A stretch of DNA of 64,000 nucleotides from Anaerolinea sp. (lineage in GTDB: Bacteria > Chloroflexota > Anaerolineae > Anaerolineales > Villigracilaceae), in the NCBI GenBank assembly GCA_020723805.1, contig DYID01000002.1:1-64000 (forward strand), in the 5' to 3' direction. The position numbers and the translations under genes are program-made. Shown piece after piece: positions 1,523 through 59,353 of this stretch (positions within the stretch are counted from its first letter, which is position 1; every line of letters begins with the position of its first letter). Below the pieces are notes generated by a model. It had not been told where the DNA came from. It saw only the letters and a list, made by a program, of their open reading frames with translations, and ran no database searches.

Positions 1523-3280
1523 CTACTTCACTTCCGCTATGAAAACTTCAAAGGCACCGAGGTGCAGGGATTTCGGACTGAGGTCGGTGTGAGAGTGGAC
1601 GGCGCTGGAGAAGAGCAAATGCAAGGATTTGTCCTTGAGAGCGGCGGTGCGGGAAAAACTCAGTTCGAGTTTGTTGTTGGAAAAATTCAGAATGACCAAA
1701 ACAGTCTGCGCGCTGGTCTGGCGGAGGAAGGCGAAATAGTCCTCGGCGCGGGGGTGAAGGGGGATGTACTCGCCTTCCACCAGCGCGGGGGTGTTCCGGC
1801 GAACGCGCAGGAGGTTCTTGTAGTAGTTCAACAGCGAATTAGGGTTGTGCAGTTGATCGCGGACGTTGATACCTTCTTTGTAGTTGGGGTTGACGGGGAG
1901 CCAGGTTTGCACGCCGGGCGGGGAGAAGCCGCCATTGGGGGCGTTGTTCCACTGCATGGGTGTGCGGTTTTTGTCGCGGCTCATTTCGCCGGCGCGCAGG
2001 GCGGCTTCGGCGGGGTCCACGCCCAGGTCGTTGACGAGGCTGTGATAGTACCAGGTCGCCATCGTGTCGCGCAGTTTGGAAGGGTCGGTGATGATGAGGT
2101 CGGTCATGCCGATTTCCTCGCCGTTGTAGAGGAAGGGCGTGCCTTTGAGGGTCAGCACGAGGGCGGCGTGCAGACGAGCGAGGCTGGAGTCGTGCTGGCG
2201 GTCGCCGTATCGGGTGAAGAGGCGGGAGGTGTCATGGTTGCCGAGGGTGTTGCACTGCCAGCCTTTGACCGGGAGTGCTTCCAGACGAGTCAAACGCTCT
2301 TTTTGGTTGCGCCGGATATGGTCGGGGGTGATGCGCTCCGTCCGCATGAGGGGGAAGTTGAAGACGAGGTGGAGTTCGTCGCCGCCGTCCCCCATGTAGG
2401 CGATGTCGTCATCTTCGCCGACGAGCATACGGTCACCGTCGTATTCGTCGAGGATGGCGCGGAGTTCCTTCATCAGGTCGTGGAGGCCGGGTCCGCCCCA
2501 TTGGTGTTTGAACATGTCGTACCAGTATTTTTCGATTTGTTTCTTTTCGGCGGGGGTGCGCGCCAGTTCGGAGGCGCGGCGCAGTTGGGCGAGGTTCATG
2601 GGGACGGTGTGCGGCGTGAGGCTGGGGTCTTCGTAGATGGTGCCGATGGCGTCGAGACGGAAACCGTCCACGCCGAGGTCGAGCCAGAAGCGGACGACGT
2701 TCCACATGGCTTGTTTGACTTCGGGGTTGCGCCAGTTGAGGTCGGGCTGCTGCTTCATGAAGTAGTGATAGTAGTATTGTCCGCGCTCGGGGACGTAGGT
2801 CCAGGCATCGCCGTCGAAGCAGGATTGCCAGTTGTTGGGGACCCCCCTCCGGCTCCCCCCATTTCCTTCGGAAATAGGGGGAGTGCCGTCCATCCAAACA
2901 TACCAGTCGGCTTTGGGGTTGTCGCGGCTGGATTTGGATTCGAGAAACCAGGGATGTTCGTCGGAGGTGTGATTGAGGACGAGGTCGAGGATGACGCGGA
3001 TGCCGCGTTTGTGCGATTCGGCGAGGAAGGTCTTGAAGTCGTCGAGCGTGCCGTATTCGGGGGCGACGCTGCAGTAATCCGAGATGTCGTAGCCGCAGTC
3101 CCAGTTGGGGGAGGGGTAGTGCGGCGAGAGCCAGAGGGCATCCACGCCGAGGTCTTTGAGGTAATCGAGTTTTTCGATGATGCCTTTGAAGTCGCCGATG
3201 CCGTCACCGTTTCCGTCGGCGAAGGAACGGGGGTAGATTTGGTAGAAGACTGCGGTTTGCCACCATTTGAGGGAGGTCAT
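1523..3280 (-). CDS. GH13 alpha-glucosidase (oligo-1,6-glucosidase/trehalose-hydrolase type)
   Basis: A 585-residue cytoplasmic glycoside hydrolase of family 13 with no signal peptide. It opens with WWQTAVFYQIYPRSFAD. The four conserved regions are visible: DLVLNH (His104), GVDGFRLDA with nucleophile Asp210, VGED with acid/base Glu289, and GNHDTSR with Asp350. Together they predict retaining hydrolysis of terminal alpha-glucosidic bonds in short oligosaccharides; exact specificity cannot be fixed. The loop before PNNWQS carries about 15 extra residues (about 133-147) encoded by a C-rich palindromic repeat at 2841-2884, so the insertion looks recent and tolerated. The two downstream genes follow closely. 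Confidence 0.95.
   Translation of the reverse strand: MTSLKWWQTAVFYQIYPRSFADGNGDGIGDFKGIIEKLDYLKDLGVDALWLSPHYPSPNWDCGYDISDYCSVAPEYGTLDDFKTFLAESHKRGIRVILDLVLNHTSDEHPWFLESKSSRDNPKADWYVWMDGTPPISEGNGGSRRGVPNNWQSCFDGDAWTYVPERGQYYYHYFMKQQPDLNWRNPEVKQAMWNVVRFWLDLGVDGFRLDAIGTIYEDPSLTPHTVPMNLAQLRRASELARTPAEKKQIEKYWYDMFKHQWGGPGLHDLMKELRAILDEYDGDRMLVGEDDDIAYMGDGGDELHLVFNFPLMRTERITPDHIRRNQKERLTRLEALPVKGWQCNTLGNHDTSRLFTRYGDRQHDSSLARLHAALVLTLKGTPFLYNGEEIGMTDLIITDPSKLRDTMATWYYHSLVNDLGVDPAEAALRAGEMSRDKNRTPMQWNNAPNGGFSPPGVQTWLPVNPNYKEGINVRDQLHNPNSLLNYYKNLLRVRRNTPALVEGEYIPLHPRAEDYFAFLRQTSAQTVLVILNFSNNKLELSFSRTAALKDKSLHLLFSSAVHSHTDLSPKSLHLGAFEVFIAEVK
2841..2884. repeat. C/G-rich palindromic repeat inserted in the GH13 gene
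   Basis: The arms CTCCCCCCATTTCC and GGAAATAGGGGGAG are complementary with one mismatch and a 3-nt loop. It is read in frame within the GH13 coding sequence and adds a Gly/Ser/Arg-rich loop absent from usual family members. Confidence 0.7.
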
Positions 3281-3332
3281 GGATGAGGGGTCCTTGCTGA
3301 GGTTTGAAAGTTGGATGGAGAAAGTCGCAACT

Positions 3333-3369
3333 TGGCGTCAGAGAGCGCCGAGTACGCGCAGGAATTTCT
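3333..3369. repeat. GGCGTCAGAGAGCGCCGAGTACGCG repeat family copy
   Basis: Palindrome GGCG-TCAGAGAG-CGCC followed by GAGTACGCGCAGGAATTTC, almost the same as 10310-10349. It lies between the cytochrome b5-like and GH13 genes. Confidence 0.7.
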
Positions 3370-3375
3370 AACAAA

Positions 3376-3627
3376 TTAACCTGCCAGCCTGCCAACGATT
3401 TTGACGCACGGGCGGGAGAAGACTTCTTCAGCGTGCGGGGCGTCGGGGAGTTCGGAGGTGAGGTCCTGCCCGGGGAAGTGCAGGTTTTCGTGCAGGTCCT
3501 GCCGCCACTTGGGACAGTCGGTCACATCATAGACGATGCCGTTGTAAGCGACATACTTACGCGAGCCGCGCCCGCCATCGTTGCGGCGGAGTTCCATGAG
3601 GGTGACGATGCGCTCGGGGACGGTCAT
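3376..3627 (-). CDS. cytochrome b5-like haem-binding domain protein
   Basis: A single-domain, 83-residue protein with the cytochrome b5 fold signature: KYVAYNGIVYDVTDCPKW, then LHFPGQDLT and DAPHAEEVF. His50 (HFPG) and His65 (APH) are the expected axial haem ligands. Such small soluble proteins carry electrons or bind haem; the partner is unknown. There is no Shine-Dalgarno site. Instead TATAAT (3640..3635) lies 7 nt before the ATG, pointing to a leaderless transcript. Confidence 0.85.
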   Translation of the reverse strand: MTVPERIVTLMELRRNDGGRGSRKYVAYNGIVYDVTDCPKWRQDLHENLHFPGQDLTSELPDAPHAEEVFSRPCVKIVGRLAG

Positions 3628-3640
3628 GGCAGGAATTATA
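3627..3640 (-). promoter_or_regulatory. TATAAT -10 box placed for a leaderless transcript
   Basis: Minus-strand TATAAT at 3640..3635, seven bases (TCCTGCC), then ATG at 3627. The normal -10 to +1 distance would start the RNA at or within one base of the A of ATG. No -35 match was found. Confidence 0.6.
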
Positions 3641-3660
3641 CAGGGGAATGCTGGGAAACG

Positions 3661-3696
3661 AAAAAGGACACGCCTCGTTCGAAGCGCGTCCTTTTT
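3661..3696. terminator. bidirectional rho-independent terminator
   Basis: AAAAAGGAC and GTCCTTTTT form the outer arms of a hairpin with flanking A/T runs. It follows the LysM gene on the minus strand. Confidence 0.75.
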
Positions 3697-3711
3697 ATGG
3701 GCGGGTCTGCA

Positions 3712-4479
3712 TTATTTGACCTTGATAACCTGCCCGACGTAAATCAGGTTGGGATTCTTGATGCCGGGATTGAGTTTGAGCAGGGCATCCACAGTGGTGC
3801 CGTATTTCGCGGCGATGATGCGGAGCGTGTCGCCTTTCTGGACGATGTAACTGGTCGCAGCCGCCGGGACTTTGAGCGCCTGCCCGACGTAGATCAGGTT
3901 GGGGTTCTTGATGCCGGGGTTGAGGATGAGCAGATTATCCACAGTGGTGCCGAAGGCTTCGGCAATCTTGCGCAGGGTGTCGCCTTTTTTCACGTAGTAG
4001 GTTTGCGTGGAGTCGGCGGGCGGAGTGGCTGGGGGCGGTGTGACAGGCGGGGGCGTGGTCGATGCGGCGTAGACTTTGAGCCACTGCCCTTCGTAGATCA
4101 GGTTGGGGTTGGTGATCTCCGGGTTTGCCTTGAGCAGGGCGTCGGTGGTGGTGTTGAAGCGGGCTGCCAGGCTTTTCAGGGTGTCGCCGCGGGCGATGAT
4201 GTAGATGAAGTAACCGCCGTCCGTGCCGAGGATGGCGCCCGGCAATTGCAGGACTTGTCCGGGGTAGATCAGGTTGCCGGAACCGATATCAGGATTTGCC
4301 CGCCGCAGGGCGGAGACGGTGGTGCCGCAGCGGTCTGCGATTTTGCGCAGGGTGTCGCCTTTGACGACGGTGACGCTGGTACCGCAGTTCCCTGCCGCCA
4401 GGGCAGAGGGGGCGGCTGCAAAGGTGGTAATGAGCAGCGCGGCGAGCAGAACAAACATTAAGATTCTTTTGGTAGTCAT
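3712..4479 (-). CDS. secreted protein with four LysM domains
   Basis: A 255-residue exported protein: a signal peptide ([28 protein letters not shown] in outline), then four LysM repeats, each with a GDTLRKIA or GDTLKSLA helix followed by NP.I.N.NLIY.GQ. They are paired two and two around a Pro/Thr linker ([12 protein letters not shown]). LysM domains bind N-acetylglucosamine in peptidoglycan, so this is likely a wall-associated protein; no catalytic domain is present. An in-frame ATG at 4491 exists, but GGAGG lies between it and the ATG at 4479, which fixes 4479 as the start. Repeats 3 and 4 share almost identical ends ([15 protein letters not shown]), indicating recent duplication. Confidence 0.93.
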
Positions 4480-4570
4480 CGAAACCTCCATTTCGTTTCA
4501 CAAAGGGATGATGCTTTTCAATTCCGAAAAGTTCCCGTTTGGCGGTTCCCCTTACCAAAGTCCTGGCGGC

Positions 4571-5726: not shown

Positions 5727-6839
5727 AAAAAACATGCCGATTCATCCTCCGTCGAACGCGCCCTCGCTCTGCTCGAAACGCTGTTGGAGCAGCCCCAGGG
5801 GGCGGAGATTCCCGATTTGCTCGCCCGCGTGGACGTTTCGCGCAGTTCCCTGTTCGTTTTGCTGAACACGCTCAAAACGCTCGGTTATGTGGAGCAAGCC
5901 GAAAAGCGCGGACGTTACCGCGCCGGTCCGCGCCTGTTGGCGTGGCGGGGCGGTTCCTCTCCGCTGCCTGCCGCCGATTTGCTCTCCGCTTTTTTTCAGG
6001 AGGCGCAATCCTGCGGCTTGGATGAGACGCTGGCGCTGTTCATCCCCACCGGCGAGGGAGAGGCGCTTTTGCTGGGACAGGTCGAAGGTCCGCGCGAGGT
6101 GCGCAGCGCCTTTGAAACGGGTCAGCCTCTGCCCGCCTCCAGCGCGGCGGGACAGGTCTTCCAATCCCCCGTCCCCGGCGAAATCCAAAAACAGGGATAT
6201 TGCCTCGCACGGCGGGGCGATGCGCTCGATGTTGCCTTTCCCATTTGCCGCGATGGCGTCACACCCAATGCCGCGCTGTTGATGAGTGCGCCCGCCTTTC
6301 GCTGGGATGAAGCCGCCGCGCAAAAGGCTTTACCCGTTCTGCGTGAAATGTCCGCCCGCCTTTCGTATCGGCTGGGAGCGGTGCATTACTCGCCCTGGCA
6401 GATGGAAGCGCTCGAAATGACGGAAACCCTGCCGCTGGATGAGACTCAAATTGCGTCGCTGCTCAAAGCGCCCTGGGCGGCGCGGCTGGCGTGCGTGCGT
6501 CCCGACGGCGCGCCGCACGTCGTCCCCGTCTGGCATGAGTGGGATGGGGAAGCCTTTCATGTGGTGGCATGGAAAGGTTCGCGCTGGGACGACTATCTGC
6601 TTGCCAACCCGCAAGTTTCGCTGACGGTGGACGAGCCCTTCCTGCCGCTGCGCCGCATCTCCGCCAAGGGGACGGCGCGCCCTGAGTTTGAATCTGCCGA
6701 CCCGCGCCTCCGCCGCCTGCTGACGCGCCTCAGCCGCCGTTATTTGGGTCAAGACCTGGCTTCTTCGCTCGCGCTGCAGGTGGAGCGTTCGTTCGTGATT
6801 ACGCCTTCCGTGTTGAAGGGCTGGCAGGGAATGGTGTGA
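5724..6839 (+). CDS. IclR-type regulator fused to a PNPOx-like flavin domain
   Basis: A 371-residue two-part protein. Residues about 1-75 form an IclR-like winged helix (SSVERALALLETLL, IPDLLARVDVSRSSLFVLLNTLKTLGYVE). Residues about 80-230 resemble the IclR effector domain but are short and diverged. Residues about 235-371 match pyridoxamine 5'-phosphate oxidase-like split-barrel proteins, which bind FMN or F420 (LLKAPWAARLACVRPDGAPHVVPVWHEWDGEAFHVVAWKGSRW, then the strand NPQVSLTVDE). This predicts a DNA-binding protein that senses a flavin or uses one for redox or ligand sensing; that role is inferred. It heads a likely operon with the ABC permease 34 bp downstream, and its own promoter holds a 38-bp palindrome. 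Confidence 0.85.
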   Translation: MKKHADSSSVERALALLETLLEQPQGAEIPDLLARVDVSRSSLFVLLNTLKTLGYVEQAEKRGRYRAGPRLLAWRGGSSPLPAADLLSAFFQEAQSCGLDETLALFIPTGEGEALLLGQVEGPREVRSAFETGQPLPASSAAGQVFQSPVPGEIQKQGYCLARRGDALDVAFPICRDGVTPNAALLMSAPAFRWDEAAAQKALPVLREMSARLSYRLGAVHYSPWQMEALEMTETLPLDETQIASLLKAPWAARLACVRPDGAPHVVPVWHEWDGEAFHVVAWKGSRWDDYLLANPQVSLTVDEPFLPLRRISAKGTARPEFESADPRLRRLLTRLSRRYLGQDLASSLALQVERSFVITPSVLKGWQGMV

Positions 6840-6866
6840 TTTGCGATTGGCGATTTGCGATTTCAG
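6838..6866. repeat. GATTTGCGATT short tandem repeat
   Basis: Tandem ATTTGCGATTGGCGATTTGCGATTT-like units between two genes; the same unit type is at 55711-55756. This is a simple dispersed repeat. Confidence 0.6.
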
Positions 6867-6873
6867 GTAAACG

Positions 6874-7647
6874 ATGACGACCAACCCTGTCTTGACGCGC
6901 CGTTCTTCTTTCAGTGGAATCTTTCTTGCGGTTCTGATGGCGGCGTCTGCTTTGGCGCTTTGGGAAATTTCCGTGCGCCTCACCGATACCCCCGTGTACA
7001 TCCTGCCTGCGCCCAGCCGCGTGATGCAGACTCTATTCTCCCAGCCGCTTTACTTTCTCGAAGCCCTTGCCGTAACCCTCGGCGAAGCGCTGGCGGGCTT
7101 GACCATCGGTACGCTGGTCGGCGTTCTCGTTGCCGCACTGGTCAGTTTACAGCCGCAGTTGGAACGCGGCGTGATGACGCTTGCCATTTTGGTCAAGTCC
7201 ATGCCGCTGGCGGCGATTGCGCCTTTGCTGACCATCTGGCTGGGCTTCGGCGTTTTGCCCAAGGTCATCATCACCGCCTTGCTGACCTTTTTCCCCACGC
7301 TGGTCAACGTGCTGGTGGGCTTGCAAAGCGCCGAGCGCGAGATGCTCGACCTGATGCGTGTCCTGCGCGCAACGGACTGGCAAATCCTCATCCACTTGCG
7401 CGCCTGGCTTTCCCTTCCTTATCTCTTTGCCGCCCTGCGCGTCGCCGCGCCGCTCTCGCTGGTGGGCGCGGTCATCGCCGAATGGACGGGCGCCTCCAGC
7501 GGCTTGGGGCGCGTGATGTGGCTGGCATACAGCAACCTCAACCTGCCGCCCATGTTCGCCGCCATCTTCATTCTCTCCCTTTCGGGCATGGGCGCGTATG
7601 GGCTGATTATCTGGCTGGAGAAAAAAGCCCTGCGCTGGAAGGGATGA
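6874..7647 (+). CDS. ABC transporter permease, SsuC/TauC/ThiX-like
   Basis: A 257-residue inner-membrane permease with about six helices and the BPD_transp_1 core. The EAA loop that docks an ATPase is visible as [49 protein letters not shown]. The [13 protein letters not shown] motif near the N-terminus is typical of the nitrate/sulfonate/taurine and thiamine-precursor families. It lies between the regulator and the DUF4832 lipoprotein, with the matching binding protein two genes on. No ATPase gene is present here, so one must be supplied from elsewhere. The substrate may be a pyrimidine thiamine precursor or riboflavin, judged only from the binding protein type. Confidence 0.92.
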
Positions 7648-7669
7648 ACCAACATCAAGGAGACAAACC

Positions 7670-9082
7670 ATGCGGCGAAACGCCTTTCTCATCCTGATTT
7701 CCCTGCTGGCAGCCTCCTGCCTGCCCGCGCAGACGGAGACGCCTCAGGCTCCGCCCGCGCCTGTCACTGTTACCCCAAGCCTCATCGCCCCGACAGAGAC
7801 TCCGCCCGTTCCGCCCCTGCAACGCGTCACATTTACCCCCTCCTCCGCCGACCTCCCCAACCCAGAGCGCGGCTTTCATTGGGGCATGGAACTGGGCGAA
7901 AACGACCTGACCTGGTATGCGGAGCAGACGCATTTCAGCCTGGTCTATTTCTACGCCCGATTGGATGACTACCGCAGCCGCGACCTGACGCCCGAATATC
8001 TCGCCGCGCTCGAAGACTTCTTCCTCCTGACGCGCCAGGCGGGGCTGAAAGCCATTGTCCGCTTCTCCTACAACGACGGCGAAACCTACCCCAACCCCGC
8101 GCCCGACGCCTCGCTGGAACAGGCGCTGCGGCACATCGAACAACTCGCGCCCGTGCTGGAATTGTATAAGGATGTCATTGCCTGGTTCGAGGCGGGTTTC
8201 ATCGGCGCGTGGGGCGAGTGGCACACCTCCGCCAGCGGGCTGGATACGCCCCAAGCCAAAGCCGCCATTCGTGACGCGCTCTATCGTCACTTCCCGCAAG
8301 ACCGCTTCATCCTCTTTCGTTACCCCGGCGACTTCATCCGCTGGTATCCCCAGCCGCTGACCGAAACGCAAGCCTTCGATGGCTCCGACCAGGCGCGCAC
8401 CGGGCATCACAACGACTGCTTCCTCGCCAGCGATGACGACTGGGGAACGTATTACGACTACGACGGCTCGCTCAAAATCGAAGAATGGAAAACCTACATC
8501 GCCCAAATGACGCGCTTTACTCCCATGAGCGGCGAGACCTGCAACCTCAACCCGCCCCGCTCCGATTGCCCCACCGCCCTTGCCGAACTGGAACGTTTTC
8601 ACTGGACGGCGATGGATGAAGGCTGGCATCCGGACGTGATTGCCTCCTGGAAAGCGCAGGGCTGCTATGAGGAAATCCGTCAGCGATTGGGCTACCGCCT
8701 CAGCCTGCTGGAAGCCTCCTTCCCGACGCAAACCCGCGCCGGCGAGTCTCTGACCCTGCGCGTTCGCCTGCAAAACACAGGATTCGCCTCCCTGCTCCTG
8801 CCGCGCGCGGTGTATCTCGTCCTGACTTCCCCCACCTACACCGCGCGCCTTCCTCTCGAAACCGACCCGCGCCGCTGGCAGCCGGGCGAACACGACCTGA
8901 GCGAATCCCTCTCCGTCCCTGCCGACCTGCCGCCCGGCGAATACGCCCTCGCCCTCTGGCTGCCCGACCCCTCCGTATCTCTGCACGCAGACCCGCGCTA
9001 TGCGATTCAATTTGCCAACGAAAACATCTGGGACGCGGAGCACGGCTGGAATATGCTGGGCAGTCTCACAATCCTTCCGTGA
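7670..9082 (+). CDS. lipoprotein with DUF4874/DUF4832-like domains
   Basis: A 470-residue lipoprotein: signal with lipobox LLAASC near residue 18, then a Pro/Thr linker. Residues about 50-200 resemble DUF4874 (NPERGFHW, FSLVYFYARLDDY, GLKAIVRFSYN, VIAWFEAGFIGAWGEWHTS). Residues about 210-470 resemble DUF4832, ending in a beta-sandwich (LRVRLQNTGFASLLLPR...). The pairing is seen in putative sugar-binding or hydrolase-like surface proteins with a TIM-barrel front half. The EAGFIGAWGEWH segment could hold acidic catalytic residues, but no activity is established. A good Shine-Dalgarno site (AAGGAG) and the 22-bp gap after the permease gene indicate cotranscription. Confidence 0.85.
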   Translation: MRRNAFLILISLLAASCLPAQTETPQAPPAPVTVTPSLIAPTETPPVPPLQRVTFTPSSADLPNPERGFHWGMELGENDLTWYAEQTHFSLVYFYARLDDYRSRDLTPEYLAALEDFFLLTRQAGLKAIVRFSYNDGETYPNPAPDASLEQALRHIEQLAPVLELYKDVIAWFEAGFIGAWGEWHTSASGLDTPQAKAAIRDALYRHFPQDRFILFRYPGDFIRWYPQPLTETQAFDGSDQARTGHHNDCFLASDDDWGTYYDYDGSLKIEEWKTYIAQMTRFTPMSGETCNLNPPRSDCPTALAELERFHWTAMDEGWHPDVIASWKAQGCYEEIRQRLGYRLSLLEASFPTQTRAGESLTLRVRLQNTGFASLLLPRAVYLVLTSPTYTARLPLETDPRRWQPGEHDLSESLSVPADLPPGEYALALWLPDPSVSLHADPRYAIQFANENIWDAEHGWNMLGSLTILP

Positions 9083-48378: not shown

Positions 48379-49326
48379 TCATGATGCTGGCTGGATATTT
48401 ACCAGACTGTCCCAGAGTTCGTTGTTGATTTTTTCGTATTGCGATTTGACGAAATCCCAAAACAGTGACTGCGCCCGCGTGAACGGAAAACCGATGTGAC
48501 GCGCCATGTAGATTTTGCGGCGCAGGTCCATCCCGTCCACTTCGACCTTTTTCAAGCGCCCCAGAGCCAGCCCGCGCGCGGCGATCATTTCGGAGACGAA
48601 GGCGATGCCTACACCGCGTTCCACCGAGAGCGCCACAGCCTCCATGCTGCCGAGTTCCATGACGATGTTGAGATTGTCCATGGTGATTTGGTGTTGTTTC
48701 AACCCCTCCATGACGGTTTCGCAGGTGCCTGTCATCTCTTCACATTTGACGATGGGCTGGTCGAGCAAATCGGAGGGCAGGGCGTGACCGTAGTTTGCCC
48801 AGGGATGATTGGGATGGACGATAAGGACGATACGGTCTTCGAAGAAGGGGACGCAGATGATGTCGCGGTGTTCGATGAGTTTGCTGGACACGCCGATGGG
48901 AATTACACGATCGAGGAGTCGTTCCACGACCCCCTCGCGGCTCATCACTTTGACGCGCGGATGCACAGCAGGGTAACTTTGCCGGAACTCGGCAAGCAGA
49001 ATGGGCAGGAGATACCTTCCCGCCGAGGTGGAACAGCCAATGAGCAGTTCGCCGCCGATCTGGTTGTTGACATCCTGCAGGCTGTCTTCGAGCAGGCGTG
49101 CCGCAAGCAGGACTTCGCGCACCATCGGCAGGATGGTCTGCCCCGCTTCGCTCAATTCGACCGAACGCCCGCCGCGGATGAATAATTCCGTGTTGTAGGC
49201 GCGTTCCAATGACTGAATGCTTTGGCTGACCGCCGACTGCGACATGTGCAGCCGTTTGGCGGCTCGGCTGAAGTTCAATTCCTCCGCCGCCACAAGGAAA
49301 ACCCGCAGGCTGGAAAGTTCGATCAT
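48379..49326 (-). CDS. LysR-type transcriptional regulator
   Basis: A 315-residue regulator with N-terminal winged helix (LRVFLVAAEELNFSRAAKRLHMSQSAVSQSIQSLERAYNTELFIR) and a LysR substrate-binding domain (GELLIGCSTSAGRYLLPILLAEFRQSYPAV, the form typical of CbbR/CysB-like members). It likely controls neighbouring genes of the Fe-S oxidoreductase, rhodanese and cytochrome group. GGAG precedes ATG 49326; the longer 49386 start is rejected. The effector is unknown. Confidence 0.93.
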   Translation of the reverse strand: MIELSSLRVFLVAAEELNFSRAAKRLHMSQSAVSQSIQSLERAYNTELFIRGGRSVELSEAGQTILPMVREVLLAARLLEDSLQDVNNQIGGELLIGCSTSAGRYLLPILLAEFRQSYPAVHPRVKVMSREGVVERLLDRVIPIGVSSKLIEHRDIICVPFFEDRIVLIVHPNHPWANYGHALPSDLLDQPIVKCEEMTGTCETVMEGLKQHQITMDNLNIVMELGSMEAVALSVERGVGIAFVSEMIAARGLALGRLKKVEVDGMDLRRKIYMARHIGFPFTRAQSLFWDFVKSQYEKINNELWDSLVNIQPAS

Positions 49327-49451
49327 CCTTCTCTCCGTAATAAGAGACGCTAATGTGTTTCTGCTATAAGAATAAGCGGTTGACATTGTTGCGCCTAGTG
49401 AAATTTGTCCGCAGTTAGGGGTGACAGGATAGGATGAACACCCTATATGGA

Positions 49452-49494: not shown

Positions 49495-51231
49495 TTATCC
49501 GGCCGTGGAGACGGGTAATTCGGCTCCGAGCCAGGCATTCATGCCGCCGCCCAGGTTGCGGACGTTGGTGTAGCCCAACATGCGCAGATACATCATGACG
49601 AGCGCGCCGCGATGCCCGGACTGACACAGCACCACGATGGGCGCGGCTTTGTCGGCAGGCAGTTGAGCAAGGTTGGCAGGCACATCCGTGATGTTGATGT
49701 TGACTGCGCCGGCAATGAAGCCCTTGTTGAATTCATCAGCGGTGCGGACATCGAGGATGAATGGGGCGGTGCCGCTGGTGAGTTCCACGTTCAAGTCAGC
49801 GGGTTTGACGGTGTAGAAGCCCTCCGGCAGGCTGGAGAGGAAGGCGTTGAGGTTTGCCAGACGGGTGGCATCCACTTCGGGAGCCGTACCAGCCGTCGGG
49901 GCGGCAGGAAGCGTGCCGGTCTCCACGGGGAGTTCGGCTTTCTTCCAGGCACCCAGTCCGCCGGCGAGGTTTTTCACGTCGGTGTATCCGAGCATTTGCA
50001 GAGCCGCCATCACCATTGCGCCGCGGTGACCGGATGCACAGTAGATGACGATGGGCTGGTCTTTGGCGGGCAGTTTATCGAGGTTGTTGAGAACTTCGCG
50101 CACGGGGATGTTGAATGCGCCCTTGATATAACCATCCTTCTCTATTTCAGCCGCTTCGCGCACGTCGAGCAGGAAGATCGGCTTTTCCGTCAGGGCGGTG
50201 TTGAGATCGGGGGCTTTGATGGAATAGTAGCCCTCGGGCAGGGCGGTGAGGTAATCGTTCCAGACGGTTGCCCAGTCCACCCAGCCTTCGACGGGGAGTT
50301 TGGCGGCTTTCCAGGCGTTGAGTCCACCGGCAAGGTTCTTGACGTTGGTATAGCCCAGCAGGCGCAGCCCCATCATGACGATGGAACCGCGGTGACCGGA
50401 GACGCAGTTGACCACAATGGGGGCATCTTTGGCGGGAAGTTTATCGAGGCTGTTGAAGATTTCCTGCATGGGGACGTTCACAGCGCCCTCGATGTGACCG
50501 TCCTTGTCGAACTCCTCAGCCGTGCGAATGTCCACGATGGTCGGCGCATCGGTGCCGGTCAATGCTTCAGCCAGTTTGTCGGATTTGATGGAATAGAAAT
50601 CCTCCGGCAATTCGGCAAGGAAGCCGTTGAGCATCTCATACAGCGGCTGGTCGGCGATGATGGGGGTGCTGATTGCTTGAGGCGCCGCAGGCATGGAGCC
50701 GGTCACCACCGGCAGATTGGCTTTCTTCCACCCGCCAAGCCCGCCAGCCAGGTTACGCACGTTGGTGTAGCCCAGCAGTTTGAGCGCTGCCATGGTCATG
50801 CCGCCGCGGTGACCGGAGGCGCAGTACACCACGATGGGGTCATCGAGACCGGGCAGCTTATCGAGGTTGGCAAGAACTTCGCGCACGGGGATGTTGACCG
50901 CGCCTTCGATATACCCATCCTTCTCTACTTCAGCCGCTTCGCGCACGTCGAGCAGGAACGGCGGCTTGTCCGCCAGTTCCTCGCTGAGCGCAGGAGGTTT
51001 CACTGTACCATAGCCTTTGTCGGCGGGCAATTCCGCCACCAGCGCGGCAAAGAGCGCCTGCACATCCGGCGCGACAACCACCGGCTCTTCCGTTACCGGC
51101 GCCTGCGGTTGTTCTTCAACTACGGAAGCCGTTGGCTTCTCCACAACCGCTTCAGTAGCGGGGGCGCATGCGCCCAATATCAGGCTGAATACCATCAGCA
51201 GACCCAGCAAAACTTGAAACTTCTTGGACAT
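49495..51231 (-). CDS. lipoprotein with four tandem rhodanese domains
   Basis: A 578-residue lipoprotein (lipobox LILGAC, Cys22) made of four rhodanese domains of about 135 residues. Every active-site loop is intact: CASGHRGG, CVSGHRGS, CASGHRGA and CQSGHRGA, each followed by LGYTNV or LGYTDV-NLAGG or NLGGG. Tandem rhodaneses usually pair an active with an inactive domain, so four active sites are unusual. It probably carries sulfane sulfur (thiosulfate or polysulfide) outside the membrane. It lies 129 bp downstream of the multihaem cytochrome gene, suggesting shared use in sulfur redox chemistry. An alternative is a structural or metal-binding role. Confidence 0.93.
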   Translation of the reverse strand: MSKKFQVLLGLLMVFSLILGACAPATEAVVEKPTASVVEEQPQAPVTEEPVVVAPDVQALFAALVAELPADKGYGTVKPPALSEELADKPPFLLDVREAAEVEKDGYIEGAVNIPVREVLANLDKLPGLDDPIVVYCASGHRGGMTMAALKLLGYTNVRNLAGGLGGWKKANLPVVTGSMPAAPQAISTPIIADQPLYEMLNGFLAELPEDFYSIKSDKLAEALTGTDAPTIVDIRTAEEFDKDGHIEGAVNVPMQEIFNSLDKLPAKDAPIVVNCVSGHRGSIVMMGLRLLGYTNVKNLAGGLNAWKAAKLPVEGWVDWATVWNDYLTALPEGYYSIKAPDLNTALTEKPIFLLDVREAAEIEKDGYIKGAFNIPVREVLNNLDKLPAKDQPIVIYCASGHRGAMVMAALQMLGYTDVKNLAGGLGAWKKAELPVETGTLPAAPTAGTAPEVDATRLANLNAFLSSLPEGFYTVKPADLNVELTSGTAPFILDVRTADEFNKGFIAGAVNINITDVPANLAQLPADKAAPIVVLCQSGHRGALVMMYLRMLGYTNVRNLGGGMNAWLGAELPVSTAG

Positions 51232-51360: not shown

Positions 51361-52884
51361 TTACTCTTGTAACTTGTGGCAACCAGAGCAGTTTTCATCT
51401 TGATATGCGGCATGGTCTTCCGGGCTGACCGGCGCATTGCGAATGCCGGTGGTGTGACATGCCGTACAGGCATTGGACGCCAGATCGGCGTGTGAGGCGG
51501 GTGTCTTTGGCGCGCGGAAGAACAGTTCCACTGCCGGCGGGACCAGCCCGACAATCACCGATTGATTGGCTTCCAGTTCTTCCGCTTTCACTTTGTCCGC
51601 GGTCAGGAAGAAACTCCCGTCGCTGCCGTGGCAGGATTGGCAGGATGCGTTCTGCGGCGTGTTCTTTTGAATGTTGTGCGGCGTTGCGTAGGTCCATGTG
51701 GGCAGAGCGTTGAAGTTTGGCAGAAGGTTTTCGCCGTAGAACTGGTAACTTGTGGGCGCAACCGGCACATGACGGACCGGCACATACTTGTATGGTCGTT
51801 CCTCGGTTGGGTTCGGGTTGCGTCCGATCAGGAACGTGGAGTACGTTGCCTGTGTTTCGAAGAAAGGTTTCCCGCTCTTTTCGCTGATCGCCACATGGCA
51901 GCCGTCGCAACTCGTATAAGTAATGGAATGGCACACCTGACAGGACAGGGTATCCCCGTGCGACTGGTGCATCGGATTTTCATCACCGCCCGGCGCCGCA
52001 GTAGGATGGCAGGTCACGCACTTCGGCGCTTCTGCGTCGGCATAGCGATGAGTCTCCGCGCTTGCCGCATCTGTGGCGGAGCCGTGCAATTCGGCGCCCT
52101 CATGGCACTTGACACAGTTCATGCGCGCCTCGCGGAAGTGCACGTCGCCGGGGAAGCCCTCATTCTTGCCGAGAAATTCATTTCCCACACGGCTTCCGTG
52201 ACAGGCTGTGCAGGAGCGCGTCATCGGCGGAGTCTTCTCGAACACATGTCCCGTAAACAACCCACCGCCCACATTCTTCGGCTGACTGACGTGGCACTCG
52301 CCGCAGGTGGTGTGGCAGGTGGCGCAGTGGTTCCCAAACATCTCTTCCAGTGCCGGGTGATTCTCAGGCACGCTGCGGGTGTTGATTGTGGTCCAGTAGC
52401 CTGCCTGCGTAGAATGCAGCGCAAAGGGATAGGTCTTCACCTGCTCCTCGTGGCACTCGCCGCAATACTTCTCCGGGTCGGCGCTTGGGCTGGCGATCAA
52501 CCCCTCATGGGCAGTTGCCTTATCGGGCGATTGCACGCCGCCGTGACAATCCACACAAGTCTTCTTTCCGTGCGTCGTCTGTGAGAACGCGTCCAAATCC
52601 ACAATGGCTTTCTCCCATGGCTCCAACGGAGCCACATCGCCCCCTCAGCCAACCCCTTTGGATTCTGACTCCGCTTCCACTTTGGGAGCCGCCGTTTCGA
52701 TCAGCCGCTCCTTATCGGTGTGACATGCCACGCATTCATCCGTATCCGGCGTGACCTCGGCAACTGCCTCTGTTTCGACCGGCTTTTCCTCCACTGTGGC
52801 AGTGGGGGAGGTTGTCCCCGCCTTCCCGCAGGCTGAAAGCAGAAAGAAAGCAATGAGCAGAATTTTTAGCGCCTTTGATTTCAC
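51361..52884 (-). CDS. 13-haem cytochrome c lipoprotein interrupted by one in-frame UGA
   Basis: One frame runs from GTG 52884 to 51361, 508 codons, with a single UGA at 52647..52645 (about codon 80). Before it: a lipoprotein signal (LLSAC), linker and one CxxCH (CVACH). After it: twelve more CxxCH motifs (CVDCH, CGECH, CATCH, CGECH, CTACH, CVKCH, CVTCH, CQVCH, CDGCH, CQSCH, CTACH, CSGCH) and no signal peptide. The second half needs export for haem attachment, so read-through is expected if it is active. A hairpin follows the UGA. The options are selenocysteine, a nonsense mutation or a sequencing error. Rhodanese and ccm genes adjoin. The role may be as a multihaem oxidoreductase or extracytoplasmic electron conduit. 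GAGG precedes the GTG. Confidence 0.85.
52618..52647 (-). promoter_or_regulatory. UGA codon with downstream hairpin, SECIS-like
   Basis: UGA (52647..52645), 17 nt, then a hairpin: TGGCTCC and GGAGCCA (7 Watson-Crick pairs, extendable by two G-U pairs) with loop GUU. Distance and a G at the first loop position agree with relaxed criteria for bacterial selenocysteine insertion elements. This is a candidate only. Confidence 0.4.
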
Positions 52885-54996: not shown

Positions 54997-55695
54997 TTAC
55001 ATCGTTACTTTCAATTTCAACTGTTCGACCTCATCCTGCAATTCGCCCAGGCGGATGCGATTCCAGTACAGGTCAACGAAGATGACCGTGAAGGCAAAGA
55101 GGGCGAAGAAGAACGCCACGCGCATGTCGGCGGTCATGGCAAAGCCGCCTTCGGCTTCGGGGTTGGCGCCGCCGATGACCACCGGGTGGATGGTGCGGAA
55201 CAGGCGGATGGCAAAGAAGGTGATGGGAGCGCTCAACCCGCCGATGAGGGCATAGACCGCGCCGAAGCGGGCGCGCCGTTCGGGGTCGTCAATGCCTTGG
55301 CGGAGCATGAAGTAGGCGATATAGATGAGTTCGGTGACGGCGGCAGTGGTCAGGCGCGGGTCCCATGTCCACCAGGTGTTCCAGACGGGACGCGCCCAAA
55401 TGGAGCCCAGCACGATGGTCAGGAAGAAGAAGACCAGGCTGACCTCGATGGCGGCAACCTGATAGCGGTCCCATTTCAGGTTTTTGGTGACGAGGTAGGC
55501 GACGCTGAAGACCGCCGCCAGGATGAAGCCCATCAGCGCCGTCCACGCGGTGCCGATGTGAAAGTAGAAGACGCGCTGAACCTCTCCCATCACCCGCTCG
55601 GTGGGGGCGAAGAACAGGGCAAGGTAGGTGGAAATGCCCAGGACGATGATGGAGAGGACATCCAGAATGGTGAGCGTTAAGGGTTTGGATTGCAT
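54997..55695 (-). CDS. ccmC: CcmC, haem-handling membrane protein
   Basis: A 232-residue, six-helix protein of the CcmC/CcsA haem-handling group. The tryptophan-rich motif is TWWTWDPRLTTAAVTELIYIAYFML, with flanking conserved His (FYFHIGTAW, and RTIHPVV). It takes haem from CcmAB and passes it to CcmE on the outer side of the membrane. The coiled C-terminal tail (LGELQDEVEQLKLKV) is longer than usual. It overlaps nothing; ccmD follows by 12 bp. Confidence 0.94.
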   Translation of the reverse strand: MQSKPLTLTILDVLSIIVLGISTYLALFFAPTERVMGEVQRVFYFHIGTAWTALMGFILAAVFSVAYLVTKNLKWDRYQVAAIEVSLVFFFLTIVLGSIWARPVWNTWWTWDPRLTTAAVTELIYIAYFMLRQGIDDPERRARFGAVYALIGGLSAPITFFAIRLFRTIHPVVIGGANPEAEGGFAMTADMRVAFFFALFAFTVIFVDLYWNRIRLGELQDEVEQLKLKVTM

Positions 55696-55710
55696 GGAAA
55701 CTCCTTGATA

Positions 55711-55756
55711 GGATTTGCGATTTTCGATTTGCGATTTTCGATTGACGATTTGCGAA
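55711..55756. repeat. GATTTGCGATTTTC tandem repeat
   Basis: Three or so imperfect copies of GATTTTCGATTTGC; same simple type as 6838-6866. Confidence 0.55.
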
Positions 55757-55792
55757 CGAGACGCTGGAGATCGTCAAATGTCTCTTTTTGTA

Positions 55793-55877
55793 ACTCACCT
55801 TACGCAGTTTTCTTGTAGCGCGACATTCATGTCGCCTGAAAACGTGAGATAAATCTCGTGCCACCGTGTAAGGTGAA
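55793..55877. repeat. 85-bp double-REP element with terminal inverted repeats
   Basis: ACTCACCTTACGCAGTTTTC, GTAGCGCGACATTCATGTCGC, CTGAAAAC, GTGAGATAAATCTCGTGCCAC, then GTGTAAGGTGAATTT. The ends are inverted repeats and the two palindromes carry opposed GTAG/GTGG heads. It lies between ccmC and ccmB. Confidence 0.88.
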
Positions 55878-55896
55878 TTTGTAACTTCCTTCAAGA

Positions 55897-55925
55897 CCGA
55901 CGTTAGAGAACGTCATCTACGCGCT
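55897..55925. repeat. GACGTTAGAGAACGTC palindrome copy
   Basis: GACGT-TAGAGA-ACGTC then ATCTACGCGC. The core hexamer TAGAGA is the same as at 1246 and 40979. Confidence 0.7.
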
Positions 55926-55964
55926 AAGCAGAAAATTTGAAACACTCTCTTACGTTGCGCGGGG

Positions 55965-56684
55965 TTATTCCTCCACGACATTATCGAACACCATGAATGC
56001 CACGGCGATGAAGATGATGTCGTAGGCGATGAGCAGGCTGAGCGGGGAAAGGATTTCCTCGAAAGGCAGTCCTTCGAGGTAGCCTCCGCTGGCTTTGACC
56101 GCCGAGAGGATGACCGGTATCACCACCGGGAAGAGCAAGATGGGAAGCAGGATGTCGCGCGTCCGCGTTTGGACCGACATGGCGGAAAGCAGCGTCCCGA
56201 CTCCGGCGTAGCCGATGGAGCCAAGCAGAATGACCAGCAGCAAGCCCGGCTGGAAGAGGTTGATGCTGTACAGCACGCTATAGACCGGCAGGACGATGAC
56301 TTCCACGATGAGCATGAACATCAGGTTGCTGATGACCTTGCCGAAGTAGATGGCGGAGCGGTCCACCGGCGCGAGCAGGAGACCGTCCATGCAGCCGCGG
56401 TCCTTTTCGATTGCCATCGAGCGGTTGAGCCCCAGGGTGCCGGCAAAAGCAAAGGTCGCCCACAGCACGCCGGAGGTCACGGATTGACGCGTTTTGACAT
56501 CCAGTTCGAGGGCGAAGTTGAAGATGAGGATGATGAGCAGGGAGAAGACCAGCATCGCCGAGAAGAGTTCGCGCGAACGAAACTCGGCTTGCAGGTCCTT
56601 CCACACCACGGCAGAGACGGCTTTGATGAAACTGCCCTGACGGGGTTGGGATGCGGCTGCGGTGCGTGTTTCGGTGATGTTCAT
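55965..56684 (-). CDS. ccmB: CcmB, haem exporter permease
   Basis: A 239-residue, six-helix permease subunit. Motifs include VWKDLQAEFRSRELFSAMLVFSLL near the N-terminus, FAGTLGLNRSMAIEKDRGCMDGLLLAPVDRSAIYFGKV, and the YAGVGTLLSAMSVQTRTRDILLPILLFPVVIPVI core of the family. With the CcmA ATPase it forms the transporter that supplies haem to CcmC/CcmE. Its ATG overlaps the ccmA stop by 4 bp. Confidence 0.95.
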   Translation of the reverse strand: MNITETRTAAASQPRQGSFIKAVSAVVWKDLQAEFRSRELFSAMLVFSLLIILIFNFALELDVKTRQSVTSGVLWATFAFAGTLGLNRSMAIEKDRGCMDGLLLAPVDRSAIYFGKVISNLMFMLIVEVIVLPVYSVLYSINLFQPGLLLVILLGSIGYAGVGTLLSAMSVQTRTRDILLPILLFPVVIPVILSAVKASGGYLEGLPFEEILSPLSLLIAYDIIFIAVAFMVFDNVVEE

Positions 56685-57379
56685 GCGGCGAGCGCCTCTT
56701 TGTAGAAGGAGAGCAGGTTGCTGTTTTGCAATTCTTCGTGCTTGGCAGAAGCCGCGATGACGCCCCGCGAGAGGATGTCGAAGCGGGTGGCGAGGTCTTC
56801 GGCGCGGGCAAGGTCGTGCGAGGTCATGACGACGGTGCGTCCTTTCGCGGCGACAGTCTTCAACACTTCGTCCAGCATGGCGGAGGCGTCCTGGTCGAGC
56901 CCGGTGTAGGGTTCGTCGAAGAGCATCACCTCCGGGTCGTGCAGGACCGCCCGCCCGATGGCGAGACGCTGCTGCATACCGCGCGAAAAAGTGCGGACGA
57001 GGTCATGGCGGCGGTTTTCCAGCCCGACCATTTCCAACACCTCGGTGATGCGTAATTGGGAATCGGCGATGCCGTACATGCGGGCATAGAAGCGCAGGTT
57101 TTCTTCGGCGGTCAGGTCGCCGTAGAGCAGGGGCAGGTGCGAGACCACGCCCAGCCGGGCGCGGACGGCGGCGGCTTCGTGCGGCAGTTGATGACCCGCC
57201 ACCGTCACCTGTCCGAGCGAGGGACGCGAGAGCGAGGCGAGGATGCGCAGGAAGGTCGTCTTGCCTGCGCCGTTGGGACCGAGCAGGGCGACGAATTCGC
57301 CCGGCTGGACCTCGAAATCCACGCCGCGCAGAACGGTTTTCAGTCCAAAGCGCTTGACCAGTTTTTTGACGGTAATCAT
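56681..57379 (-). CDS. ccmA: CcmA, ATP-binding subunit of the haem exporter
   Basis: A 232-residue ABC ATPase: Walker A LLGPNGAGKTT, a signature FSRGMQQRLAIGRAVLHDP, Walker B EVMLFDEPYTGLD, and the H-loop MTSHD. Context with ccmB and ccmC identifies it as CcmA. ATP hydrolysis powers release of holo-CcmE rather than haem transport itself. Confidence 0.95.
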   Translation of the reverse strand: MITVKKLVKRFGLKTVLRGVDFEVQPGEFVALLGPNGAGKTTFLRILASLSRPSLGQVTVAGHQLPHEAAAVRARLGVVSHLPLLYGDLTAEENLRFYARMYGIADSQLRITEVLEMVGLENRRHDLVRTFSRGMQQRLAIGRAVLHDPEVMLFDEPYTGLDQDASAMLDEVLKTVAAKGRTVVMTSHDLARAEDLATRFDILSRGVIAASAKHEELQNSNLLSFYKEALAA

Positions 57380-57433: not shown

Positions 57434-59353
57434 TCAGCCCATCATGTCCTTCAGGATTTCCTTCAATTCGGCGCGGCGCTTCTGATATGCCTCGTCGGAA
57501 ATCTTTTTGGCGCGGTGCAGGTCGTCGAGGGCGATGATGGCGTCCATCACATCTTCGGAAGACTCGAACTCTTCTTCTTCGTCCTCCTCGTCCTCCTCAG
57601 CGGCTTCCTCCTCTTCTGTGCGTTTGCGGTCACGCAGATAGAGCCACGCCCCCGCCAGGATGAGCGCCACGCCCAGCCCGCCAGCGCCGATGAGCAGGGT
57701 GGTGTTGCGTGTAAACGCAGTGTCAGCGCTGGAGGCGGTCTTTGGCGCGCCGGAGATGGTAAATTCGAGCGTGCTGCCCGCCTGCAAGCCGCTTGCCGTG
57801 TATGCCTGATAGTTCATCCCCTGGATGTTTTGGGCGGCGTCTTTGGTGATGCCCTCGCCCTTGACCTCCATGCCCTCCGGCACGAAAATGCGCACGGTGT
57901 TCACCGCCAGCGTCAGCGGCTGGGCAAGGGAGATTTCCTTGGCGGGCGTCACCGAAGAGAAGGCGAGCAGACCATACGGCTGTTCGCTGGGCGGCATGGC
58001 AAAGCCGTCGGCGGTGCCGATGAAGCGGGCGCTGTCCTGCATGGCTTCGTAGCCGAGTCCCTCCGCGCCGACGGGGAACTTCAGGAACGGAATCTCCTGC
58101 TGGGAGCCCATGGAGACCGCAACGATTTTTTCGCTGGGGTTGCGGAAGGTGTACATCGCAAGGATTTGATACGCCGTCTCATTTTCCACGCTCAGGAACA
58201 GGTTCAGTTCGTCCATTGCCAGCACGGAGGTATCGTCTGTGACTCCGTACAGCACCAGCGGCGGCAGTTCCACCGCGGTCTGCCCCGCCTGCACAATGGC
58301 GAACTCGGAACTCAATTCGATGCCGCCGTAAGTCACCTCCGCAAGGAAGATGCGGTTTTCGGGCATCTCCACATTCTCGAAGGCAAACGTACCGTCGGAC
58401 GCCACCGTGCCTTCCAGCGTCAGGACTTCCTGCGTGCCGGCGTTGGGATTGGCAAAGTCATGTTCGAAGCCGCGCAGAGTGACGGTCATGCCTTCGGGGA
58501 GGTCGGCGCCGGTGCGATTCTCGATGGAGCCGCGCACGGTGCCGAAACCTTCGATGACGACGGGCGTCGCTTCAGGCGTGACTGGAGCCTGCTCGGTCCC
58601 TTCGGGCGTTTCTGCGGCTGACGGCGTTCCCGCCTCAGCGGAGACGGCGCTTGGGCTGGCAGAGACAGGCGTCCCCTGAGGTTGAGGCGAGGGCGTCGGT
58701 TCGGTTTGAGCAGTCTCGGTGGTGTAGGTCAGCGAGCGCAGGTATTCCGCCACTGCCCACATTTCTTCATCGGAGAGGTTTTCTCCAAAGGCGGGAATCT
58801 CCTCGTTGCCGAGCCGCACAATGCGCGCCAGCGCCACCGTGCTCAAGCCCGCCATGCGCGCCGGGTCTTTGAAGTAATCGAGGGGACAGTCCGCGCAGTT
58901 GGCTTCGAAGAGTTCCTTGCCTTTGGCGATTTCCTCTTCGGAAGTGTGCAGAGACATGATGTAGGCGACCACGTCCCAGCGTTCCTGGTCGTTGAGGCTG
59001 GCGAAGGGCGGCATGAAGCGTTCGATCCTGCCGCGTGTAACGACGGTGTACCAGGCGGCGGGCGAGGCGGGGCGGGCAATCTCGGGCAGCGCAAATGCGG
59101 GAACAGTGACGCCCAGTTGAATGCCTTGCGGTCCGTCGCCCATGCCGGTGGCGCCGTGACAGGCGGCGCATTTTTCCATGTAGATGGCGGCGCCGTTGGC
59201 GATATTGGGCGTTTGCGGCGGGACGAGCGCCAGCGTGGGCATGGGCGTCGGCGGGACGTAGCCGGGCGGCGGTGTGACATCCTCGGCGAGGCTCATGTTG
59301 CAGGCGGTGAGGAGGGTGGTGAGAAGAAGAAGGGTGGCGATGCGTAATTTCAT
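57434..59353 (-). CDS. membrane-anchored cytochrome c fusion protein in the ccm operon
   Basis: A 639-residue lipoprotein (lipobox LTAC, Cys18). Residues about 48-215 form two class I cytochrome c domains: the first has CAACH (Cys62, Cys65, His66) and Met after MPPF; the second reads CADCPLD, with His replaced by Pro (Cys153, Cys156), so its haem site is incomplete. A Pro/Thr linker leads to a carboxypeptidase-regulatory-like beta domain and a large beta region, then a membrane helix (TTLLIGAGGLGVALILAGAWLYL), an acidic stretch and a short helical C-terminus. It likely acts as an electron carrier or substrate for maturation. The unusual acidic tail may bind a cytoplasmic partner. Confidence 0.87.
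   Translation of the reverse strand: MKLRIATLLLLTTLLTACNMSLAEDVTPPPGYVPPTPMPTLALVPPQTPNIANGAAIYMEKCAACHGATGMGDGPQGIQLGVTVPAFALPEIARPASPAAWYTVVTRGRIERFMPPFASLNDQERWDVVAYIMSLHTSEEEIAKGKELFEANCADCPLDYFKDPARMAGLSTVALARIVRLGNEEIPAFGENLSDEEMWAVAEYLRSLTYTTETAQTEPTPSPQPQGTPVSASPSAVSAEAGTPSAAETPEGTEQAPVTPEATPVVIEGFGTVRGSIENRTGADLPEGMTVTLRGFEHDFANPNAGTQEVLTLEGTVASDGTFAFENVEMPENRIFLAEVTYGGIELSSEFAIVQAGQTAVELPPLVLYGVTDDTSVLAMDELNLFLSVENETAYQILAMYTFRNPSEKIVAVSMGSQQEIPFLKFPVGAEGLGYEAMQDSARFIGTADGFAMPPSEQPYGLLAFSSVTPAKEISLAQPLTLAVNTVRIFVPEGMEVKGEGITKDAAQNIQGMNYQAYTASGLQAGSTLEFTISGAPKTASSADTAFTRNTTLLIGAGGLGVALILAGAWLYLRDRKRTEEEEAAEEDEEDEEEEFESSEDVMDAIIALDDLHRAKKISDEAYQKRRAELKEILKDMMG

Follow-up and report, generated by a model that had tools for sequence, protein, structure and literature searches.

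A conserved in-frame UGA, very likely read as selenocysteine, in a rhodanese-associated multihaem cytochrome c gene of Chloroflexota

The in-frame UGA of a multihaem cytochrome c gene in a contig of an Anaerolinea sp. is, in our assessment, very likely decoded as selenocysteine (Sec), which would make the product a Sec-containing multihaem cytochrome c; this has not been shown biochemically, and there is no protein-level evidence. The reading rests on three supports: conservation of the UGA among homologues, synonymous constraint together with compensatory change in a hairpin that follows it, and a complete Sec machinery in the genome. By 'the window' we mean the whole stretch of DNA analysed, 64,000 nucleotides long, and A1 denotes a 31-row alignment of the family that was used for the wider searches. 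The features of the gene within the window are these:

51361..52884, minus strand: gene of the proposed Sec-containing multihaem cytochrome c, 507 residues with the UGA read through, 13 CxxCH motifs.
52828..52884, minus strand: lipoprotein signal with lipobox LSAC (Cys19), from the translation; Cys19 is nearly invariant in A1.
52720..52734, minus strand: first CxxCH (C51-H55), the sole haem motif 5' of the UGA, from the translation.
52645..52647, minus strand: in-frame UGA, putative Sec80, in the context GVG-U-GG; UGA in 33/33 loci and in 142/152 distinct sequences.
52618..52634, minus strand: putative SECIS hairpin UGGCUCC-GUU-GGAGCCA, on the grounds of synonymous constraint, covariation and fold.
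51376..52557, minus strand: twelve CxxCH motifs 3' of the UGA, ten of them within a conserved core of eleven.

The original prediction, made from sequence alone, had described one frame with a single UGA, one CxxCH motif before it and twelve after, and a lipoprotein signal at the start, and the translation bears out all of this: from 52884 to 51361 on the minus strand there is a single frame with a lone UGA at 52647-52645 and a terminal TAA. Exactly one haem motif precedes the UGA in every one of the 104 UGA rows of our first set, and the Sec site, flanked by haems 1 and 2, is embedded in a Gly-rich segment that is conserved and mostly reads G-x-G-U-[GA]-[GA].

A blind scan of a species-genome collection, for which only the part after the UGA served as the query, returned 33 loci with UGA in all 33, always in the same column and within the motif G-U-GG(D/E/S)V(A/V)PLEPW. 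These loci are titled Anaerolineae-type or Chloroflexi bacteria and match the query part at identities from 87% down to 55%; the scan method picks up close relatives. Searches with A1 reached further. In the phylum Chloroflexota, 13 of 400 genomes gave matches, 12 of them with UGA, the thirteenth (G019) being a distant relative without the Sec loop; the distant relative L064/L144 lacks this loop. The class sample gave matches in 75 of 396 genomes and the order sample in 79 of 380. The three samples overlap, and the class and order counts take in a few sense-codon or partial genes. Pooled, the Chloroflexota matches make 178 rows, which reduce to 152 distinct 300-nt stretches, counted in this way because some rows are the same contig under two names; 142 have UGA and 10 have a sense codon, and the window sequence itself is outside both totals. 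Alignment pieces lacking the Sec column were left out (12 in one batch, including L100, and 4 in another), and three fragments or distant sequences (G522, G672, G756) were kept out of the rows. Five duplicate places (L140-L143, L145) were removed before the hairpin list of 111 rows was drawn up, and the later removal of a second, unrelated cytochrome of L011 and of the outgroup L144 brought it to 109. A search of plasmids with the window protein gave no match at E 0.001. Most of the sequences come from draft metagenome assemblies. The original prediction had named a nonsense mutation or a sequencing error as the alternative to Sec. Whether as an error of sequencing or assembly or as a recent mutation confined to this genome, that alternative found no support and is now all but excluded, since the same UGA recurs in 142 distinct sequences from many assemblies, and the codons around it are under selection.

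The minority without UGA deserves separate consideration.

Sense-codon members: L097, L098, L099 (second copy), L112, L136, L170, L171, L172, L173 and L206.

Their codons are TGG (three), TTT (two) and one each of TTG, CAC, GTG, CTC and CAG, which places Trp (3), Phe (2), Leu (2), His, Val or Gln at the Sec column. No stop interrupts the frame at the site in any of the ten, and one haem motif precedes it and 9-20 follow. The five sense rows then known need four changes on a 107-row tree, which comprised 106 family rows and an outgroup; the sense-codon members are a minority spread over several branches of the tree. A Cys codon at the Sec column was found in none of the 152 distinct Chloroflexota sequences, though exchange between Sec and Cys is the usual, if not obligatory, hallmark of a selenoprotein. 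The original prediction had held that a column of UGA or Cys would support Sec, and that homologues with neither would speak against it. The conservation of UGA meets the first part without the expected Cys exchange, and the ten members with neither UGA nor Cys do count against Sec by that rule; in mitigation, they are few and lie on several branches, and the nine that could be examined lack the tandem rhodanese described below.

Three of the sense-codon members merit individual mention. The L099 contig holds two paralogues, at 2582-4075 and 6271-8889, one with UGA and the other with TTT (Phe); in the TTT paralogue the Gly-rich loop is degraded and the haem motifs number about 20. L112, at 3011-4528, has TGG in place of UGA with the hairpin intact, and its congeners L105 and L106 have UGA; this TGG might represent a recent loss or an assembly error. 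In L171 the UGA looks to have been removed by an in-frame deletion, and the hairpin is still paired.

The original prediction also placed a SECIS-like hairpin 17 nt downstream of the UGA, and here a correction is needed: the distance from the UGA to the stem is 10 nt, and 17 nt is the distance to the apical loop. The stem has 7 bp, 52634-52628 pairing with 52624-52618 around the loop GUU at 52627-52625. The current model of the bacterial SECIS calls for a loop of 3-9 nt, a stem of 4-16 bp, a G in the first two loop bases, a UGA-to-loop distance of 16-37 nt and a minimum free energy of at most -7.5 kcal/mol (PMC13188914). The window hairpin, with its GUU loop, 7-bp stem, 17 nt distance and -12.9 kcal/mol, meets this model, and the claim that it satisfies relaxed SECIS criteria holds, the 17 nt to the loop being the very quantity that is constrained to 16-37 nt (PMC13188914). 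The 41-nt stretch starting at the UGA folds to this hairpin at -12.9 kcal/mol with a z of only -1.87, 10 of 200 shuffled sequences folding as well, so that the single sequence is weak evidence, and it is the comparative data that carry the case.

These data are of two kinds. Among the 31 rows of A1 there are 114 invariant residues with synonymous freedom, and exactly five of them have an invariant codon; the five are those of the hairpin, V84 (GTG), A85 (GCT), P86 (CCG), L87 (TTG) and E88 (GAG). The 108 comparable columns outside residues 84-89 have a mean codon entropy of 1.16 bits. A random draw of five would yield this outcome with a chance of 7e-9, and any such run with a chance of 7e-7, figures that are naive and only indicative, the sequences being related. 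The second kind is pairing. When 132 distinct UGA sequences are scored, 98.6% of the cells for the six inner pairs hold a standard pair; sliding the partners by 1-4 positions, as a control, brings this down to 24-56%. The loop starts with G in 131 of the 132. Counting positions from the U of the UGA as 0, pair 14-28 occurs as G-C, G-U, C-G and A-U, pair 15-27 as G-C (82) and C-G (49), and pair 19-23 as C-G (129) and A-U (2). The protein shifts alongside the hairpin, from V-A-P-L-E-P to V/L-P-P-L-E-A or -V. On the tree, the swap at pair 15-27 arises separately in L080, amid relatives with the other form, and L090 differs at this pair from its neighbours L085 and L101. A separate pair test on 15 rows gave 98.9% paired and a covariation of 0.219 against 0.109 in shuffled data, each reached by none of 500 shuffles; two of the five measures in that test, the count of pairs with two-sided change and the count of pair types, were not above the shuffles (378/500). 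Taken together, synonymous constraint and compensatory changes make it very likely that the hairpin is under selection as RNA. L061 and L101 form five of the six pairs. The sister rows L120 and L131 were observed to keep the UGA with only two of the six pairs and no canonical hairpin; possibly they use another SECIS or are losing Sec.

The hairpin bears directly on the rival reading in which the UGA is a true stop and the locus encodes two proteins, a monohaem lipoprotein and a multihaem protein re-initiated at GTG 52635. In favour of this reading, a purine-rich stretch precedes that GTG (the original prediction had pointed to GAGGGGG as permitting re-initiation), the 424-codon frame from it is open, and all 31 rows of A1 share the GTG. 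The constancy within A1, however, is accounted for by the hairpin, and outside A1 other members have TTG, CTG, GCG or GTC at this place, the last three of which are not usual start codons. Moreover, the downstream product would have no signal peptide, a free-standing upstream product with one haem motif would be odd, the ten sense-codon members run through the site as one continuous frame, and the compensatory pairs after the UGA would be left unexplained. We therefore consider the two-protein reading very unlikely and retain the Sec reading.

The machinery that Sec insertion demands is present. The original prediction had proposed a search for selA, selB, selC and selD, and all were found in the genome: tRNA-Sec (selC; 71.5 bits, anticodon UCA), selB (341.9 bits), selA (540.2 bits) and selD (359.1 bits), the last with a single UGA of its own in SACAG-U-ASK, which conforms to the UxxK motif of SelD (PMC13188914). 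Over a set of 33 genomes, consisting of the own genome and 12 others with a match to the family and 20 without, selB exceeded the cut-off in 32 and tRNA-Sec was present in 31. Relatives thus possess the machinery almost universally, whether or not they carry the gene, and finding it does not set carriers apart. One UGA member lies in a genome without a tRNA-Sec match (G121), which is 86% complete.

A further rival keeps the read-through without the Sec, the UGA being read as Trp or passed by general read-through. In its favour, TGG stands in the aligned column in three of the ten sense-codon members (L112, L170 and L171). Against it, Phe (2), Leu (2), His, Val or Gln stands in that column in the remaining seven, the hairpin fits the SECIS model, and tRNA-Sec is present. 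In addition, UGA serves as an ordinary stop elsewhere, as the original prediction had noted: TGA ends three of the 12 listed window genes and is the terminal stop of 34 of the 104 UGA-containing family genes themselves (in four of the 104 the end of the contig or locus cuts the gene short). This rival is very unlikely in our view, and the evidence discussed so far supports selenocysteine as the reading of the UGA.

The neighbourhood of the gene offers the main clue to what such a protein might do. Two genes on the same strand need to be introduced:

49495..51231, minus strand: lipoprotein with four rhodanese domains, a CxSGHRG loop in each (PF00581, 8.9e-85, 4 stretches); a conserved partner of the cytochrome.
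48379..49386, minus strand: LysR regulator; best NCBIfam model NF040786 (selenium metabolism-associated LysR) at 210.4 bits, under the cut-off of 250.

A rhodanese homologue lies downstream in all 30 loci L009-L038, the remaining three (L039-L041) stopping at a contig edge. In the 109-row set, a rhodanese on the same strand within 1.5 kb accompanies 93 of 104 UGA rows vs none of the five sense rows (Fisher 3.7e-5, uncorrected for relatedness). In ten of the 11 UGA rows without one, the contig stops no more than 0.6 kb away on one side; the eleventh, L065, is a genuine exception, since the longer locus L142 that contains it shows no rhodanese within about 4 kb on each side. We note as an aside that this rhodanese-free member, L065/L142, is divergent and carries its UGA in a CxxU motif (ACKGU). 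Four sense rows found later were added to the test: L172 and L173 have no rhodanese, L170 has one single-domain frame of 94 codons, and L171 has overlapping rhodanese fragments in two frames. Tandem rhodanese was thus seen beside none of the nine sense-codon members examined; 64 later UGA rows and L206 were left out of the test, and the flank covered only 1.0 kb upstream of L098 and 0.9 kb downstream of L172. The fragments of L171, at 2381-2616, adjoin its sense-codon member. In two other members the rhodanese and the Sec cytochrome are fused in one open frame, with two rhodanese domains at L062:3-2489 and one at L107:2751-4970. With neighbourhood, fusion and joint loss all pointing in one direction, a coupling of cytochrome and rhodanese is very likely.

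A LysR match is present in 28 of the 33 loci L009-L041, and NF040786 was the top model for all five LysR neighbours scanned, at 132-246 bits against the cut-off of 250, the LysR of L126 being cut. NrfD-type membrane and Fe-S proteins adjoin L029 (UGA) and L097 (sense), and a cytochrome b561-type protein and another multihaem cytochrome adjoin L126 (UGA). Upstream in the window, at 54997-57379 on the minus strand, lie genes that resemble ccmC, ccmB and ccmA of cytochrome c maturation, and homologues of these ccm-like genes keep their place in L009, L010, L013, L014 and L037 as far as the loci reach. Separately, a predicted cytochrome at 57434-59353 (minus strand) has two CBB3-type stretches, the second with CADCPL where CxxCH would be expected.

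The protein itself constrains the possibilities for the selenolate. Position 80 and the lipobox Cys19 aside, Cys occurs in the window protein only within CxxCH motifs; it hence has no internal resolving thiol, and the selenolate most likely reacts with a group from outside: a rhodanese persulfide, a substrate or a haem iron. The joint loss of Sec and rhodanese favours the rhodanese persulfide among these. A census of haem ligands counted eleven conserved non-motif His for the eleven core haems, and by counting there is no obviously free site that needs Sec; a role of Sec as haem ligand remains possible and is not excluded by the count. An AlphaFold2 model built on A1 was poor (mean pLDDT 55.7, with residues 78-87 of the Sec loop below 50) and its Foldseek search against the PDB gave no match at E 0.001, so that Sec could not be placed relative to the haems. 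One residue was seen to vary between the two groups: Tyr163 of the window protein is Tyr in 98% of UGA rows and in one of five sense rows. It is a possible Sec-site residue, offered as a lead only, five sense rows being too few.

We propose the following working scheme, of which the decoding of the UGA is strongly supported and the mechanism inferred. SelB and tRNA-Sec would decode the UGA at a SECIS hairpin inside the coding sequence, and the product would be a single extracytoplasmic, lipid-anchored multihaem cytochrome c that works with the adjacent rhodanese, usually one of several domains. Sulfane sulfur (or selenium) would be passed from the rhodanese to the selenolate. The electrons for reducing the Se-S bond, or those released when the reaction runs in the oxidising direction, would travel along the haem chain, coming from or going to the quinone pool via the NrfD/Fe-S or cytochrome b modules found beside some members. 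A function in extracytoplasmic sulfur or selenium redox chemistry is likely, as inferred from context; the direction and the substrate (polysulfide, thiosulfate, selenite) are undetermined.

Within the Sec reading, we lean towards reduction or oxidation of sulfane sulfur over selenium-oxyanion chemistry, an inference that could well go either way. The rival here accepts Sec but has the protein reduce selenium oxyanions or supply selenium, on the pattern of the Ext cluster of Geobacter, instead of handling sulfur. In its favour, the best model for all five LysR neighbours scanned is the selenium-metabolism one; in the ext cluster of Geobacter the Sec cytochrome ExtKL likewise has a rhodanese-like companion, and selenite and tellurite reduction is impaired when ExtI is lost (PMC5877670); and A1 members give weak matches to the ExtM, ExtN and ExtO models (5, 2 and 2 of 31, respectively). 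Against it, the LysR scores stay under the cut-off, few members match the Ext-operon models, and those only weakly (best E 1.9e-7 to 2.5e-9), the four rhodanese domains carry ordinary CxSGHRG loops and score 18.3 bits with the ExtH model, whose cut-off is 200, and the NrfD-type modules beside some members belong to the polysulfide-reductase Pfam family. A selenium role seems to us the less likely of the two, though a serious possibility. Returning to the preferred sulfur chemistry, a bolder reading may be entertained, somewhat more likely to fail than to hold: this would be a family with no Cys version, in which a haem-wired selenolate takes sulfane sulfur or selenium from a dedicated rhodanese and a thiol cannot replace it. 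By the same joint reading, when Sec is lost, Trp, Phe, Leu, His, Val or Gln would take its place, the rhodanese would be lost, shrunken or broken, and the electron-carrier part would survive.

If the Sec reading is right, a widespread and apparently uncatalogued selenoprotein family is added to environmental anaerobes, the gene would appear truncated or split wherever annotation takes UGA as a stop, and the question of why selenium is used rather than sulfur becomes directly testable. The family is absent from the 2026 catalogue of 119 selenoprotein families (PMC13188914) and we found no report of it in the open-access literature searched, preprints and most subscription papers being outside that search; it is therefore likely to be uncatalogued. 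The authors of deep-Sep remark that, as it seems, no known selenoprotein lacks a Cys homologue, and that proteins without one may be lost in their filtering (PMC12013277). Predictors that need Sec/Cys pairs may discard the present family in just this way, and such filtering of Cys-less proteins is one possible explanation for its having gone unlisted.

Finally, we compare the family with known systems. Among cytochrome models, PF14522 (cytochrome c7/c3-type) matches the window protein at 1.3e-16, a scan of A1 at E 0.001 returned 14 families, and a DmsE-type decahaem model matches 21 of the 31 A1 members (best E 5.3e-11); local profile matches to cytochrome c 28pb (E 0.0012) and NrfA chains (E 0.002) are weak, and none is full-length. 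The window protein exceeds no NCBIfam cut-off. The ribbon_DG selenoprotein NF049953, which has a similar motif (GUxG), matched none of the 31 A1 members at E 0.001 and gave no match in the own genome, a search without a responding positive control. The haem-related entries among the 119 families and subfamilies in Table 1 of the catalogue are ExtKL, GSU2204 and the TIGR04315 octahaem family (PMC13188914). The GSU2204 family (NF041027) is likewise a CXXCH-bearing predicted selenoprotein, but of the MtrB/PioB-type outer-membrane barrel (PMC13188914), and its model matched neither the window protein nor, at E 0.001, any of the 31 A1 members. The tetrathionate reductase family octahaem TIGR04315 is, like the proposed protein, a Sec-bearing multihaem c-type cytochrome (PMC13188914), and Dethiobacter encodes rhodanese-domain proteins alongside its octahaem SirA/Otr homologues (PMC10376724); unlike it, the present family has a core of eleven haems, not eight, and the TIGR04315 model leaves the window protein unmatched and finds two of 31 A1 members only weakly (best 1e-5). 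A further parallel is ExtKL (NF040886), also a multihaem c-type cytochrome with predicted Sec at an in-frame UGA and encoded near a rhodanese-like lipoprotein, ExtH (PMC1914089, PMC6148476, PMC5877670). Its model did not match the window protein, any of the 31 A1 members at E 0.001 or anything in the own genome, and none of 400 Chloroflexota genomes exceeded the cut-off, nor did any of 14 control genomes. In architecture, ExtKL has five N-terminal CxxCH motifs and a C-terminal part resembling no characterised protein (PMC1914089), whereas here a single CxxCH precedes the UGA and about ten follow it. The present family would accordingly stand as a further type of Sec multihaem cytochrome and, with ExtKL/ExtH, as the second one adjoining a rhodanese-like protein, which suggests that sulfur or selenium metabolism has arrived at this solution more than once.
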